Shown here one piece after another: positions 530 to 37,207 of a stretch of DNA of 37,207 nucleotides (the stretch's first letter is position 1; every line of letters starts with the position of its first letter). The position numbers and the translations under genes were made by a program. The stretch covers positions 1 through 37,207 of IMG/VR virus record IMGVR_UViG_3300047356_000053. The stretch is one strand, 5' to 3'. Source of the stretch: a virus. Below the pieces are notes generated by a model that saw only the letters and a list, made by a program, of their open reading frames with translations, was not told the origin of the DNA and ran no database searches.

Positions 530-916
530 ATGGATACTAAGAAACTTTGGGAATCTTTGAACACTAAAGACTTTCCAGAAATAGTTTACATAGAGTGGTG
601 GGATGCTCTATCTGATTGTGGTTGGGAAGACAATGTTAAGCCTAACATTCATCCTGTTTTAAGTGTAGGGTTTGTTGTGTCAGAAGATGACTCAGCTATT
701 TGTATCGCTGCTGCTTTATCTAACGAACAATCTAACTCAAGACTTCACATACCTAAAGGGTGGATCACTAAGATGAAAAGAGTTCGTTTGAATAAGTTCT
801 TAAACATAAGGAGAAAGCCATCAAAACCCAAAGTGCAAAAGCAAAAGGTAGAAAGCTCCAACAATGGTTCCGAGATCAAATCATTGGAGCGTTTTCATTT
901 TCACGATCAGATGTAA
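530..916 (+). CDS. Conserved phage protein with apparent stop-loss extension
   Basis: The start chosen is the ATG at 530, preceded by AAAGG; an upstream in-frame ATG has no such signal. The 128-residue product opens MDTKKLWESL and has a WWDALSDCGW stretch, VGFVVSEDD, and IPKGWI near residue 85, a pattern I associate with a small phage protein of unknown role. The last 31 residues are lysine- and serine-rich and overlap the next gene out of frame. If base 822 were G rather than C, a TGA at 821-823 would end this protein at 97 residues in an ATGA overlap, the usual junction in this genome. The C-terminal tail is therefore probably a recent read-through extension. Function unknown. Confidence 0.75.
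   Translation: MDTKKLWESLNTKDFPEIVYIEWWDALSDCGWEDNVKPNIHPVLSVGFVVSEDDSAICIAAALSNEQSNSRLHIPKGWITKMKRVRLNKFLNIRRKPSKPKVQKQKVESSNNGSEIKSLERFHFHDQM
808..822 (+). promoter_or_regulatory. Ribosome binding site pointing to an ATC start codon
   Basis: AAGGAG at 808-813 is followed by six bases and then ATC at 820-822, in frame with the resolvase. No ATG, GTG or TTG lies at a suitable distance in that frame before the conserved N-terminal residues begin. The site argues that translation starts, or used to start, at 820. Confidence 0.6.
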
Positions 917-19298: not shown

Positions 19299-20549
19299 TT
19301 ATAACACCACCCATCTTGATCCGCTAGGGACTGTTACTGAAACACCACTATTAACTGTTAGTGGCCCTGTAGACATAGCGTTTGTACTTGCTGTTATTGA
19401 ATAACTTGTTGTAATAGTTTGTCCGTTCTCGTAGAAGATAGCATCAGAACCACCACCTGAAGCTCCTCCACCGCCACCAATAGCTCCCCACGCAGAACCA
19501 TCATAGCCCTCAAAGGAACTATCACTAGAATTAAATCTTAAATAACCAGCACTAGGTGAGACATCTCTCTGTGCTGTTGTACCTGCTGGCATCTCAGCAG
19601 AGCCTGTAGCAGATGTCTTAGCTACATAGTCTGTTGTATCAAATGCTTTAACTTGTGCTAGGTTAGTGACTTCACTGTCCATTAACGCACCAGCAGCAGT
19701 AACGTTATCTACGTCTGTTACATCAGCACTGGCTTCAATACCAGATAACTTTGTTTGTTCTGCGTCAGTAAACGCATTAGTATCTGCGTTACTCTCGTAT
19801 GCAGTCTTAATCTCACCAGCAGTTTGATCTGCAGTAGCAGATGCTTCTATACCAGCTAGTTTAGTAAACTGTGCATCAGTAAACGCATTAGCTTCTAACT
19901 CATAGGCAGCTTTAATCTCAGCACCTGTTTGATCTGCTGTTGCAGCAGTCTCAATACCTGCTAACTTAGTTTCTTCAGCAGTAGTATAAGATGCAGTAGT
20001 AGCATCGAGTACAGCAGAGTGTGCTTGTACGTCAGAGCCTATAGTTAAACCAAGATTAGTTCTTGATGTTGCTGCACTTGCTACATCAGATAAGTTATTA
20101 GCAGCCTCTAGTCCACCACTACCTGTTGTAATGGTTTGCCATGTTGTTCCATTCCAGACATAGATAATGTCATCAACAGTGTCGTAATACATTGCTCCTT
20201 CAGCTAACGCATTACCATCATTGTCAACGGTAGGAGCAGATGACTTAGCGCCTAAGTACCTGTCATCAAAAGAATCAAAAGATGCAGCAGCAGCAGTAGC
20301 CGAACTAGCAGCAGCCGTTGCAGAAGATGCAGACGCTGTAGCAGAACTAGCAGACGCTGTAGCAGAACTTGCGGATGCAATAGCAGATGTTGAAGAATCA
20401 GATGCTGACGTTGCAGCAGCAGTAGCTGAACCAGCAGCAGCAGTAGCCGAACTAGCTGCTTCTGCTGCCTTATCAGAGGCTACGGAGGCTTGATTAGCAG
20501 CGTCTGTTGTAGCATCTCCTGATCCTCCAGCCCCTCTCCATATAGCCAT
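19299..20549 (-). CDS. Main tail fibre protein
   Basis: The 416-residue fibre has an Ala/Ser-rich N-terminal coiled region (repeats like SSATASASSATA, residues 15-95), a FDDRYLGAKSSAP junction, a MYYDTVDDIIYVWNGTTWQ module, tandem repeats with KLAGIE-x-AATADQT-x-EIK-x-AY (about 190-290), a glycine-rich hinge and a small beta tip. This is the usual plan of trimeric phage side fibres. The start has GGAAATAAA just upstream and lies ten bases after the PqqA-like gene. Confidence 0.85.
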   Translation of the reverse strand: MAIWRGAGGSGDATTDAANQASVASDKAAEAASSATAAAGSATAAATSASDSSTSAIASASSATASASSATASASSATAAASSATAAAASFDSFDDRYLGAKSSAPTVDNDGNALAEGAMYYDTVDDIIYVWNGTTWQTITTGSGGLEAANNLSDVASAATSRTNLGLTIGSDVQAHSAVLDATTASYTTAEETKLAGIETAATADQTGAEIKAAYELEANAFTDAQFTKLAGIEASATADQTAGEIKTAYESNADTNAFTDAEQTKLSGIEASADVTDVDNVTAAGALMDSEVTNLAQVKAFDTTDYVAKTSATGSAEMPAGTTAQRDVSPSAGYLRFNSSDSSFEGYDGSAWGAIGGGGGASGGGSDAIFYENGQTITTSYSITASTNAMSTGPLTVNSGVSVTVPSGSRWVVL

Positions 20550-20558
20550 TTTATTTCC

Positions 20559-20630
20559 TTACTTAGTTGCGATATACATCGTGACTTCAAAACCAAATCT
20601 CATCTCAGTGTATTCAGGCTTAGTCCACAT
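20559..20630 (-). CDS. pqqA: PqqA-like PQQ precursor peptide
   Basis: A 23-codon gene starts at the ATG at 20630, six bases after an AAAGGA ribosome site. The peptide reads MWTKPEYT at its start and FGFEVTMY at 12-19. Bacterial PqqA peptides are also 22-24 residues, begin MWTKP or MWKKP, and carry the GxEVTxY core. The Glu (E15) and Tyr (Y19) that PqqE crosslinks to build pyrroloquinoline quinone are at exactly the standard positions. PqqA is the ribosomal substrate for PqqD, PqqE, PqqB and PqqC, none of which is visible here, so the phage peptide would need host enzymes. The first 11 bases overlap the end of the 31-codon gene in another frame, which suggests coupled translation. Confidence 0.85.
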
Positions 20631-20715
20631 AGTGTTTCCTTTGTCGTAGTTTAAGTATTTGTTGTTTCTTGTGGTTATCTAGTTCACGCTTACGGCAGAA
20701 GTCTTGCCAAGACAT
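20620..20715 (-). CDS. 31-residue peptide gene downstream of the riboswitch
   Basis: The ATG at 20715 follows AAGAGGAGGG with four bases between, the strongest ribosome site in this part of the genome. The 31-residue product begins [17 protein letters not shown] and ends RQRKHYVD. It is basic and predicted helical. Its position 24 bases after the glutamine-aptamer-like RNA matches the short peptide genes after which the Downstream-peptide motif was named. Some cyanobacterial peptides of that class inhibit glutamine synthetase, but I see no clear sequence match to those, so its role is open. Confidence 0.75.
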
Positions 20716-20738
20716 AACACCCTCCTCTTAAAGAAAGA

Positions 20739-20790: not shown

Positions 20791-20820
20791 AAACTCCCTA
20801 GACCTTGTGAGTCTAGGGAG
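20791..20820 (-). terminator. Intrinsic terminator after the capsid gene
   Basis: A perfect 10-bp stem (GTCTAGGGAG at 20811-20820 with CTCCCTAGAC at 20794-20803 on the plus strand), a 7-base loop and a short U-rich run (TTTCATTATT) on the minus strand lie 19 bases after the capsid stop. The riboswitch begins only about 10 bases further on, so the downstream genes need partial readthrough, RNA processing or a promoter inside this interval. Confidence 0.8.
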
Positions 20821-20838
20821 ATATTACAACCTACTTAA

Positions 20839-21771
20839 TTAAGCAGGAACAGCGAGAGCTACAGCAGCATCGTCACGAAGCTCAGCTACACCGTAAAGCA
20901 TATCTGATGTGAACAATGTTGCAAGCCACTCTTGCTTGTACTGGGTCTGTGAACGTACACCCATCTGCTCAGCAAGACAGAAAGCATCTTTATGAGCCAT
21001 GAGACAAATACGGTCAGCACCAGAGCTTCCAGCACCTGAGTCAGCGTTGGTTGTCACAAAGGCTTTAACACCATAGAGATCACCAATCTGACCATTACGG
21101 ATCGTGTTGTTTTGTCCTTGCTCACCAACAAAAGACTCAGAACTAAATCTGTCAATACCCATGAGAGTATTTCTTGTTGTAGGTGGAACAATTAAAAAAC
21201 GATCTGTCATAGGAACGTCAGCATCGTCAAGTCGCTGAATAGAACGTCTGATACCTGCATCAGCCAATGCAGCAGCATTAGAAGATGAAGAGTTATAGAC
21301 AGTAGTTCCATTAGAACCAATGAATGCGTTAGTAGTTGAAGATGCTGTAGAGTACGCAGTACCTGAACCAGCAGTACGACCTAGCTGAATCAAGTCAGTA
21401 TCTACTTGTTTAGCAATAGCATGACCAGCGTCATCAGTGTAGAACTTTCGTAGAGAGCTAAGAGCTTGTGTCTCAACAATGTCCTCAATGAAACGTGAGT
21501 ATTCGTAGTGCTTGTTGATGTTGACCAGAACCTCGTTCTCAGTTGCAGCAATAAGCGTTACCTGAGTTGATGCTGCCTTTGCAGACGCTGCACCACGAGT
21601 AGGTTTAGGAATGTGAAGCACATCACCTTTTTTGCCTTTAAAAGACATCTTGGAGAACAAGTTAGCAGCGACAAGATTAGCCTTGTATGCTGCAACAATC
21701 TCATCACTCCAAATCTCAGGGATGAACTTCGCTGCGGTAGTGGTTGTTACATTATTAGTACCTAGTGCCAT
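20839..21771 (-). CDS. Major capsid protein
   Basis: The 310-residue protein begins MALGTNNVTTTTAAKFIPEI and continues WSDEIVAAYKANLVAANLFS and GDVLHIPKP, the familiar start of HK97-fold capsid proteins in marine podoviruses. The C-terminal part (QTQYKQEWLATLFTSDMLYG) also fits. It follows the scaffold gene directly, with AAGGAAATAAGAA before the ATG, and is followed by a strong terminator, as expected for the most abundant late product. Confidence 0.9.
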   Translation of the reverse strand: MALGTNNVTTTTAAKFIPEIWSDEIVAAYKANLVAANLFSKMSFKGKKGDVLHIPKPTRGAASAKAASTQVTLIAATENEVLVNINKHYEYSRFIEDIVETQALSSLRKFYTDDAGHAIAKQVDTDLIQLGRTAGSGTAYSTASSTTNAFIGSNGTTVYNSSSSNAAALADAGIRRSIQRLDDADVPMTDRFLIVPPTTRNTLMGIDRFSSESFVGEQGQNNTIRNGQIGDLYGVKAFVTTNADSGAGSSGADRICLMAHKDAFCLAEQMGVRSQTQYKQEWLATLFTSDMLYGVAELRDDAAVALAVPA

Positions 21772-34819: not shown

Positions 34820-35533
34820 TTGTCTAAGTCAATGAACAATGCAACTGCACTCATTGACGGAGATATTCTGACGTACCGCATTGGTTTCTCTTCTAATGAA
34901 CCTGATGAGGAAAAGTTTGCTATTTCTCGGATGGGTAATTTTGTTGATAGGTTAATTAAGGTCACAGGAATAGATTCTTATGAAGGCTATCTGACAGGGA
35001 AGAAAAACTATAGGTCGGAAATTGCTACTGAGCAAGCTTACAAAGGGAATCGTAAAGAGGCTAGAAGACCAGTCCATTACGATTCTCTGCGTGAGTATCT
35101 CATTACTAAGTGGGGCTTTAAACTCCAAGAAGGTCAAGAGGCTGATGATGCTATCGGAATAAAAGCATATTCATTACCAGAAGATTCTAGCTGCGTCATG
35201 ACTATAGATAAAGACTTAGACATGATTAGAGGATGGCACTACAACTTTGTCAAAGAAGATTTGTATTATGTTACCGAAGCTCAAGCCATTAAGAATTTCT
35301 ACATTCAGATTCTTACTGGTGATCGAGTTGACAACATTGCTGGTCTTAAAGGTATTGGTCCAGTTAAAGCTAAAAAGATTCTTGAGAAATGTTTTTCTGA
35401 AAACGAAATGTTCGACGCTGTTTGTAAAAAGTATAAGAACGACATAGATACAATAACTGAACGTGGCAGGTTGTTGTGGATTCGTAGACAGGAGAATGAG
35501 ATATGGGACCCACCTCTTTATGAACAATACTAA
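34820..35533 (+). CDS. 5'-3' exonuclease (T7 gp6/T5 flap nuclease family)
   Basis: The 237-residue protein has LIDGDILTYR (12-21), EADDAIG, VMTIDKDLDM and the helix-3-turn-helix GLKGIGPVKAKKI, the two-metal and DNA-binding parts of flap exonucleases. It removes primers and degrades host DNA in T7-like phages. The start is uncertain: a TTG at 34820 follows the previous stop, and an ATG at 34832 begins closer to the conserved core. Neither has a good ribosome site, so coupling with the upstream gene is likely. The 3' part lies in the terminal repeat. Confidence 0.9.
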   Translation: MSKSMNNATALIDGDILTYRIGFSSNEPDEEKFAISRMGNFVDRLIKVTGIDSYEGYLTGKKNYRSEIATEQAYKGNRKEARRPVHYDSLREYLITKWGFKLQEGQEADDAIGIKAYSLPEDSSCVMTIDKDLDMIRGWHYNFVKEDLYYVTEAQAIKNFYIQILTGDRVDNIAGLKGIGPVKAKKILEKCFSENEMFDAVCKKYKNDIDTITERGRLLWIRRQENEIWDPPLYEQY

Positions 35534-35546
35534 TAGAAAGGTTGTT

Positions 35547-35933
35547 ATGGATACTAAGAAACTTTGGGAATCTTTGAACACTAAAGACTTTCCAGAAATA
35601 GTTTACATAGAGTGGTGGGATGCTCTATCTGATTGTGGTTGGGAAGACAATGTTAAGCCTAACATTCATCCTGTTTTAAGTGTAGGGTTTGTTGTGTCAG
35701 AAGATGACTCAGCTATTTGTATCGCTGCTGCTTTATCTAACGAACAATCTAACTCAAGACTTCACATACCTAAAGGGTGGATCACTAAGATGAAAAGAGT
35801 TCGTTTGAATAAGTTCTTAAACATAAGGAGAAAGCCATCAAAACCCAAAGTGCAAAAGCAAAAGGTAGAAAGCTCCAACAATGGTTCCGAGATCAAATCA
35901 TTGGAGCGTTTTCATTTTCACGATCAGATGTAA
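35547..35933 (+). CDS. Conserved phage protein with stop-loss extension (second copy)
   Basis: This is identical to 530-916. The probable ancestral stop would be at 35838-35840, with the same C (here at 35839) that removes both this stop and the next gene's ATG. Confidence 0.75.
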   Translation: MDTKKLWESLNTKDFPEIVYIEWWDALSDCGWEDNVKPNIHPVLSVGFVVSEDDSAICIAAALSNEQSNSRLHIPKGWITKMKRVRLNKFLNIRRKPSKPKVQKQKVESSNNGSEIKSLERFHFHDQM

Positions 35934-36196
35934 GATCCACAAGCATGGGTGCTGGAGGTGAGGACATACAGTTCTCTCAAGAGGTAGGAGATCAGTTAGG
36001 TATATCTATTGAATGTAAATCAAGAGAGTCTATAGCTGTTTATGCTTTTTATTCTCAAGCTGCTGATAATTGCCCTGAAGGTAGAGAACCTGTGGTTATT
36101 ATTAAGCAGAATCATTCTAAACCTTTGGCTGTTATTGATGCTAAGTATTATGTTAAATTACTGAAAGGAACCAATGAGACATTTGATAATTCCTGA
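35837..36196 (+). CDS. Putative Holliday junction resolvase, ATC start (second copy)
   Basis: This is identical to 820-1179, including the AAGGAG site (35825-35830) and the ATC at 35837-35839. The same base in both copies argues against a simple read error only if the two copies were assembled independently. Confidence 0.75.
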   Translation: MKTQSAKAKGRKLQQWFRDQIIGAFSFSRSDVRSTSMGAGGEDIQFSQEVGDQLGISIECKSRESIAVYAFYSQAADNCPEGREPVVIIKQNHSKPLAVIDAKYYVKLLKGTNETFDNS

Positions 36197-36938
36197 CACA
36201 CAGTGTAAGCCTAACAACTCATTCGATCACTTAGCGTGGGCAGGTGAGTACGCTGTTAAGATTAAACCTGATGTCATCGTTCATCTAGGAGATCACTGGG
36301 ATATGCCTAGCCTAAGCGTTTATGACATTGGTAAAAAGTCGTTCGAGGGTAGAACTTATCATGATGATATCGAGGCTGGTAACAAGGCTATGGATACCTT
36401 CATGAAACCTGTTATTGCAGAACAGAAGAGGCAGCGACTAAACAAGAAGAAAGTCTGGAAACCTAAAAAGGTCTTTCTTATTGGTAATCATGAGTATCGC
36501 ATCGACAGAGCTATTGAGTCAGACAGAAAGCTAGAAGGATTAATTGGTTATGATGATTTTAATTTAAAGAAATATAACTGGGAGGTCCATCCTTTTCTCG
36601 ATGTAGCGGTCATCAATGGGATAGCTTACAGTCACTACTTTACTTCTGGTGTTATGGGTAGACCTGTCAGTAGTCCTAATCTTTTATTGCAAAAAAAACA
36701 CATGAGCTGTGTGATGGGTCATGTCCAAGATAGAGCTATTTCATTCAGTAAGAAAGCTGATGGATCTAGGATCACTGGTCTATTTGCTGGTATCTTCTAT
36801 CAGCATGATGAGGAGTATCTTAATCCTCAGACTAACGGTAGCTGGTCTGGTGTGTGGGTGTTTAATGAAGTCACCAGTGGTAGCTTCGACGAGATGCCTG
36901 TGTCAATAAACTATCTGAGGAAACAGTATGGAAATTAA
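36174..36938 (+). CDS. Calcineurin-like metallophosphoesterase (second copy)
   Basis: This is identical to 1157-1921 and complete in both copies. Confidence 0.9.
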   Translation: MRHLIIPDTQCKPNNSFDHLAWAGEYAVKIKPDVIVHLGDHWDMPSLSVYDIGKKSFEGRTYHDDIEAGNKAMDTFMKPVIAEQKRQRLNKKKVWKPKKVFLIGNHEYRIDRAIESDRKLEGLIGYDDFNLKKYNWEVHPFLDVAVINGIAYSHYFTSGVMGRPVSSPNLLLQKKHMSCVMGHVQDRAISFSKKADGSRITGLFAGIFYQHDEEYLNPQTNGSWSGVWVFNEVTSGSFDEMPVSINYLRKQYGN

Positions 36939-37207
36939 AAAGGTGCTACAAACCAGAGCAGGTACTTATGGTGAATACAGGGACGTAAGTCAGATCAGTC
37001 AGGACATAAAGAAAGTAATTAAGAACTCTCGTAATTACCCACTAATGCCAGCTTATATGTTAGAGTCTCTTGAGTTAATAGCAAACAAGTTAGCTAGGAT
37101 TCTTAATGGTGATCCTCTCTATGATGATTCTTGGAGGGACATTTCAGGATACTGTACTTTAGTGTTGATGGAAATAGAAGACATGGAGAACTCAGATGAA
37201 TCTCACG
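36928..37207 (+). CDS. DUF6378-like protein, 3'-truncated by window edge (second copy)
   Basis: This copy of 1911-2198 lacks its last eight bases, because the window ends. The following 51-codon gene begins at 37196, with only four codons present. Confidence 0.8.
   Translation, partial: MEIKKVLQTRAGTYGEYRDVSQISQDIKKVIKNSRNYPLMPAYMLESLELIANKLARILNGDPLYDDSWRDISGYCTLVLMEIEDMENSDESH

Follow-up and report, generated by a model that had tools for sequence, protein, structure and literature searches.

The window, by which is meant the whole stretch of DNA analysed, corresponds to a 37,207-base virus record in IMG/VR; an exact direct terminal repeat of 2,190 bases (positions 1-2190 and 35018-37207) leaves 35,017 unique bases. 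It carries a T7-like gene set, including genes for primase/helicase, family A DNA polymerase, ribonucleotide reductase, terminase, portal, major capsid and tail fibre proteins; with capsid, portal and terminase genes and the exact 2190-bp terminal repeat, it is certainly a bona fide virus genome. The DNA polymerase is 51% identical to that of the pelagiphages HTVC103P/104P. No close cultured relative was found, capsid identity reaching at most 35% among the matches listed from 50,697 phage records.

A tiny gene, pqqA, lies at 20559-20630 on the minus strand and comprises 23 codons and a stop, the ATG starting at 20630 and the TAA ending at 20559. A sequence-only reading of this DNA had placed a 23-codon gene with its own ribosome site here, in a late gene setting, and both the coordinates and the setting are right, with major capsid, tail fibre, portal and terminase genes around it. 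The ribosome site AAAGGA (20637-20642, minus strand), read directly from the DNA, is located 7-12 nt 5' of the pqqA start and is conserved among relatives. The upstream neighbour is the major capsid gene (20839-21771, minus strand; phrog_267 major head protein, E 2e-49) and the downstream neighbour is a tail fibre gene (19299-20549, minus strand; tail fibre PHROGs, best E 2e-36). A terminator-like hairpin (CTCCCTAGAC-tcacaag-GTCTAGGGAG, then TTTCATT; 20794-20820, minus strand) is found 3' of the capsid gene and is present in every relative displayed, whether pqqA is present or absent. Between this terminator and pqqA are two features absent from the sequence-only reading, both on the minus strand: a glutamine riboswitch aptamer (glnA RNA, RF01739; 20737-20783; 55.9 bits against a gathering score of 35, model positions 1-53) and ORF31, encoding a basic peptide of 31 aa (20620-20715). 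The ribosome site of ORF31 (GAGGAGGG, 20720-20727, minus strand) is predicted to form a hairpin with the aptamer 3' flank; the 3' end of ORF31 contains the pqqA ribosome site, and its stop codon overlaps the first pqqA codons (ATGTGGACTAA).

The Pfam profile PF08042 matched the window genome at 41.7 bits (E 8e-12) over its full length (model positions 1-19 of 19), and the peptide alone at 43.9 bits; since the curated cut-off is 21.1 bits, the score is twice the cut-off and the peptide stands far above the short-peptide background. Window PqqA shares with bacterial PqqA its length, the N-terminal MW-KP, the core RFGFEVTMY and the residues E15 and Y19, which are established as the source of the PQQ skeleton (Barr et al. 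2016, as cited in PMC7678222) and which are present at the crosslinking positions that had been claimed for them. It differs in being encoded in a phage genome, next to capsid and tail genes and without pqqB-E. Bacterial pqqA usually shares its genome with pqqB-E, but the PF08042 family definition does not require that. A comparison with the PHROGs assigned PqqA to no family. Judged by this profile match and these residues, the identity of the product as PqqA can be regarded as certain for practical purposes.

Conservation of pqqA and its spread among phages

Relatives of the window were collected with the capsid protein, not PqqA, as the query, which retrieved 80 IMG/VR loci. Capsid identity was at least 78% in 26 of them, of which 25 were informative and one ends too early. 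The pqqA gene is placed directly 3' of the capsid gene in 21 of the 25 informative loci (one copy is cut by the contig end); in the other four, with capsid identity of 78-80%, pqqA is missing, the capsid terminator runs straight into the tail-fibre gene, and no altered copy was found in any frame. Among the 80 loci, relatives with less than 78% capsid identity showed no pqqA. Counting the window, the clade has 21 complete copies, which represent 14 DNA versions and seven peptides with an invariant 11-residue core; their divergence (pS 0.40, pN 0.05, pN/pS 0.127) indicates purifying selection on pqqA, and its position among the late genes is constant. Loss of the frame or of E15/Y19 in related phages, which the sequence-only reading had named as refuting its claim, was not observed: the frame is intact in 21/21 copies, and Glu and Tyr stand four residues apart in the window and all 20 complete syntenic relatives, a constancy that is partly by construction because the detection pattern demanded E and Y.

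A tblastn search with the 23 residues of PqqA against named phages matched 12 records. Nine of them are Methylophilales phages, namely MEP301, MEP401, MEP402, Venkman, four Melnitz strains and P19250A; the remaining records are one uncultured Manatee Spring podovirus and two called Acinetobacter phage. One of the latter (CAKLQF020000010, 'Acinetobacter phage MD-2021a') was rejected as phage evidence, since the contig is bacterial and carries ppk, fur and the whole pqqA-E operon; CAKLQH020000055 is the second record under this name. The nine Methylophilales phage records span podo-, sipho- and myo-type virions. Shared-protein counts indicate that the named carriers have few proteins in common with one another or with the window, MEP401 and MEP402 being sisters. 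The genome position of pqqA differs between the methylophages examined. Each of these cultured methylophages encodes a PqqA of 23-24 aa, as the window does; unlike it, they belong to other lineages, have pqqA at other genome positions and lack an adjacent riboswitch. The Melnitz riboswitch is located apart from pqqA, at 46.4 kb, and its authors drew a link to tmRNA. Since MEP431-434, present in the taxonomy, lay outside the returned phage records, it cannot be claimed that all methylophages carry pqqA.

The methylophage records examined contain no PqqA annotation. In Melnitz (MZ577097, 76100-76195) and the Manatee phage (MW202481, 2067-2195), a hypothetical gene, probably miscalled, is annotated opposite pqqA. 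Neither the MEP301 paper nor the Melnitz paper refers to pqqA, and a word search of the Venkman paper counted no 'PQQ'; the gene was missed in the annotations and papers examined for cultured methylophages because it is only 72 bp long. Besides the named phages, the search of viral genomes proposed in the sequence-only reading found RFGFEVTMY in at least 120 IMG/VR loci. The longer 11-residue pattern, used as a DNA pattern in a scan of 84,980 bacterial and archaeal genomes, was found mostly in Methylophilales, and the commonest viral PqqA peptide is also the commonest bacterial one among the matches listed.

Enzyme genes, candidate hosts and methanol oxidation

The supposition that the phage contributes only the substrate was borne out by gene content, as no pqqB-E were found in the window and tblastn searches with PqqB, C, D and E found none of these genes in 208 viral loci; most of these loci are fragments, so the absence is well supported in the surroundings of pqqA but less so across entire genomes. 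The same settings detected PqqB, C, D and E in 20-29 of 120 bacterial loci. The candidate hosts are bacteria in which the nearest PqqA peptides occur; all eight have pqqC, in a single copy each, and all eight have a PQQ-dependent alcohol dehydrogenase. The third refuting point of the sequence-only reading, absence of pqq genes from the host, was thereby examined in candidate hosts; the claim had passed the other two. Six candidate host genomes contain 1, 2, 2, 2, 3 and 12 copies of pqqA. The twelve copies belong to the LSUCC0135 assembly (G003, L182; Methylophilales), where they are scattered over contigs against one pqqC, and could be a real amplification or an assembly problem. A PQQ-producing methylotroph with five pqqA copies has been described (PMC9851590). 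Hosts thus multiply pqqA and not the enzyme genes, which fits a consumable that is spent one for one.

The PqqA of the window differs from the OM43 type, its nearest counterparts being those of marine betaproteobacteria related to TMED22, and a virus of the window clade (L475) encodes a PqqA exactly equal to the TMED22 peptide. In TMED22 itself, one pqqA precedes pqqB and another lies elsewhere. This 23-residue marker may point to a TMED22-like host for the window. Base composition (Markov order 4 and 6) was also tried and did not separate an OM43 from a TMED22-like host; MEP301, a known OM43 phage, scores like the window in this test.

One 72-kb virus contig (L244/L360) contains, together with pqqA, a gene for a PQQ dehydrogenase of the methanol/ethanol family (608 bits against a cut-off of 480), as well as genes for formate dehydrogenase alpha and a quinoprotein-associated SoxYZ-like carrier. 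The 33.0-43.0 kb region of this contig (L360, IMG/VR 3300025120_009955) further includes a thioredoxin-like protein, CsgA-like repeats and a glutamine riboswitch. Both pqqA and methanol dehydrogenase had been reported in Lake Baikal phages by Coutinho et al. 2020 (PMC7678222), where population VP_266 was assigned to methylotroph hosts. VP_266 and the window have phage pqqA in common, but VP_266 also encodes methanol dehydrogenase, whereas the window, a T7-like genome of 35 kb, carries only pqqA, which stands behind a glutamine riboswitch. The gene set of the 72-kb contig, matching the Baikal report, speaks for methanol oxidation being supported rather than inhibited.

The glutamine riboswitch upstream of pqqA

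The RF01739 aptamer occupies the same place in 13 relatives (53-57 bits), and ORF31 is present in 13/13 of these closest relatives with the riboswitch; both are missing from seven pqqA carriers that are more distant. Comparisons of ORF31 with Pfam (no match), the PHROGs (chance-level scores only) and named phages (no match) placed it in no known family. As in glnA RNA, the aptamer of the window is complete, but a short basic peptide and pqqA follow it, not glnA or a gene for a glutamine synthetase inhibitor.

Glutamine riboswitches are common in IMG/VR phage contigs, a scan for the aptamer having found at least 120 loci (L380-L456 and others), and a hairpin that involves the ribosome site is conserved among them. 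Across these and previously collected loci, a 5-bp stem can form between the aptamer 3' flank and the next ribosome-site region in 74 of 93 phage riboswitches, against a mean of 16 and a maximum of 27 in the shuffled-arm control, and the stem shows paired changes (CACCT/GGGTG, CACTT/AAGTG, CATCT/AGATG, CAATC/GATTG). The predicted fold of the window RNA likewise pairs the aptamer 3' flank with the ribosome-site region. The phage glutamine riboswitch is, as modelled, most likely a switch acting on translation and opened by glutamine, a direction that we infer. Translation of pqqA is probably coupled to the glutamine pool because the ORF31 stop overlaps the pqqA start; as pqqA has its own ribosome site, it is from this overlap that we infer its control by the riboswitch.

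The order riboswitch, basic peptide of 28-34 aa and pqqA recurs in three other loci (L294, L437 and L459), the capsid, terminase or portal proteins of which match other families, with weak protein similarity between L459 and the window; the arrangement apparently arose on more than one occasion. It is a minority arrangement all the same, since a riboswitch lies nearby in one of 120 pattern-sampled pqqA virus loci, among the matches listed, and a general rule linking riboswitches to phage pqqA was rejected on this count. In L475 (about 540-760, minus strand), a single reading frame joins the basic peptide to PqqA.

Basic peptides of 28-38 aa (W/Y-x-x-W/Y-C, then many K/R) follow glutamine riboswitches in unrelated phages, Melnitz included; members of this family are the window peptide (20620-20715, minus strand), L361 (224-322), L413, L437, L459, L472 and L480. 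Other peptides downstream of IMG/VR phage glutamine riboswitches include some with YRGV repeats. It is speculation, by analogy with cyanobacterial riboswitch-controlled glutamine synthetase inhibitors, that the basic peptides may act on nitrogen metabolism.

Function and significance of phage pqqA

We consider it fairly probable that phage pqqA is functional and supplies the precursor for host PQQ synthesis, the enzymes being those of the host. The phage peptide would be bound by host PqqD and crosslinked between E15 and Y19 by host PqqE, and host proteases, PqqB and PqqC would then convert the crosslinked peptide to PQQ. PqqA would be the sole used-up part of the pathway, one peptide per PQQ, and the catalysts PqqB-E would persist past host shut-off while host pqqA messages decay; because PqqA would be consumed and PqqB-E are catalytic, one 72-bp gene could sustain PQQ synthesis, methanol or alcohol oxidation and respiration. 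In the window clade, the riboswitch and the overlapping ORF31 would tie this translation to the glutamine pool. The putative role as an auxiliary metabolic gene, proposed in the sequence-only reading, gains support from the profile match, purifying selection, E15/Y19, the many methylotroph phages that carry it, the lack of pqqB-E in the phages and candidate hosts having pqqC and PQQ-dehydrogenases. In acetic acid bacteria, more PQQ is made when pqqA or pqqAB is overexpressed, the gain being 29% with pqqAB alone as against eightfold with the whole operon (PMC7936290), so that substrate alone should bring a modest gain. Against supply count this limited gain from pqqAB alone, the possibility that dehydrogenase-bound PQQ is enough for the hours of infection, and the four close relatives without pqqA (capsid identity 78-80%).

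The same sequence-only reading had suggested, as a second possibility, a decoy that occupies PqqD/PqqE and lowers host PQQ, e.g., to stop methanol oxidation. A competitor would be expected to be encoded as substrate alone, as is the case here, but it should also lose E15/Y19 or mutate the core; all copies retain both residues, many are letter-identical to host PqqA, and the methanol dehydrogenase near pqqA in one virus points to more oxidation, which makes a decoy very unlikely. It is unlikely to almost the same degree that selection acts on the riboswitch-ORF31 cassette, with pqqA a passenger on its expression. Riboswitches with short peptides do occur in many phages without pqqA, but loci L025-L035 keep pqqA in place without riboswitch and ORF31, which largely refutes this explanation; a single one of the 120 pqqA viruses has such a riboswitch nearby among the matches listed, and pqqA is under purifying selection of its own.

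Another target of the peptide, e.g., a signal in PQQ-dependent regulation, or a use of PQQ as an infection antioxidant rather than a dehydrogenase cofactor, is doubtful. Stress roles of PQQ have been reported (mentioned in PMC7936290), and the second pqqA of TMED22, apart from pqqB, is found beside a sensor kinase and a response regulator, as judged from ORF reading; however, the named pqqA phages almost all infect methylotrophs, and the proximity of pqqA and methanol dehydrogenase in one virus favours cofactor use. Phages often carry the end of a gene used for integration, and pqqA could in principle be kept as DNA, e.g., as an attachment site copied from the host gene, and not for its peptide; the many synonymous differences between phage and host copies refute this, ribosome sites are kept, positions vary among unrelated phages and pN/pS is 0.13, all of which leaves such an origin barely credible.

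Precursor supply being the preferred reading, the presence of a tiny pqqA in many unrelated methylotroph phages suggests that host cofactor raw material may be topped up during infection. The claim that the gene represents an unusual new type of auxiliary metabolic gene was too strong: phage pqqA is already known as a kind from the Baikal report (PMC7678222), and viral pqqA is among the genes listed in a reservoir study (PMC13188868). What appears to be new, as far as the open-licence literature goes, is the spread of pqqA among cultured methylophages, together with the riboswitch cassette. As a tentative proposal, somewhat short of an even chance as a whole, a glutamine-gated cassette in marine phages of PQQ-dependent bacteria may couple PQQ precursor supply to the nitrogen or amino-acid state of the infected cell, with phage PqqA near-general, and overlooked, in methylophages.

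Most auxiliary metabolic genes encode enzymes; the product of phage pqqA would be the raw material of a cofactor itself, which offers a cheap and direct test of whether cofactor supply limits infection. For uncultured phages that infect PQQ-dependent bacteria, the gene could also act as a marker of the host. The riboswitch link, if true, would be among the few cases of small-molecule control over a phage metabolic gene, and pqqA itself links viruses to marine methanol oxidation.
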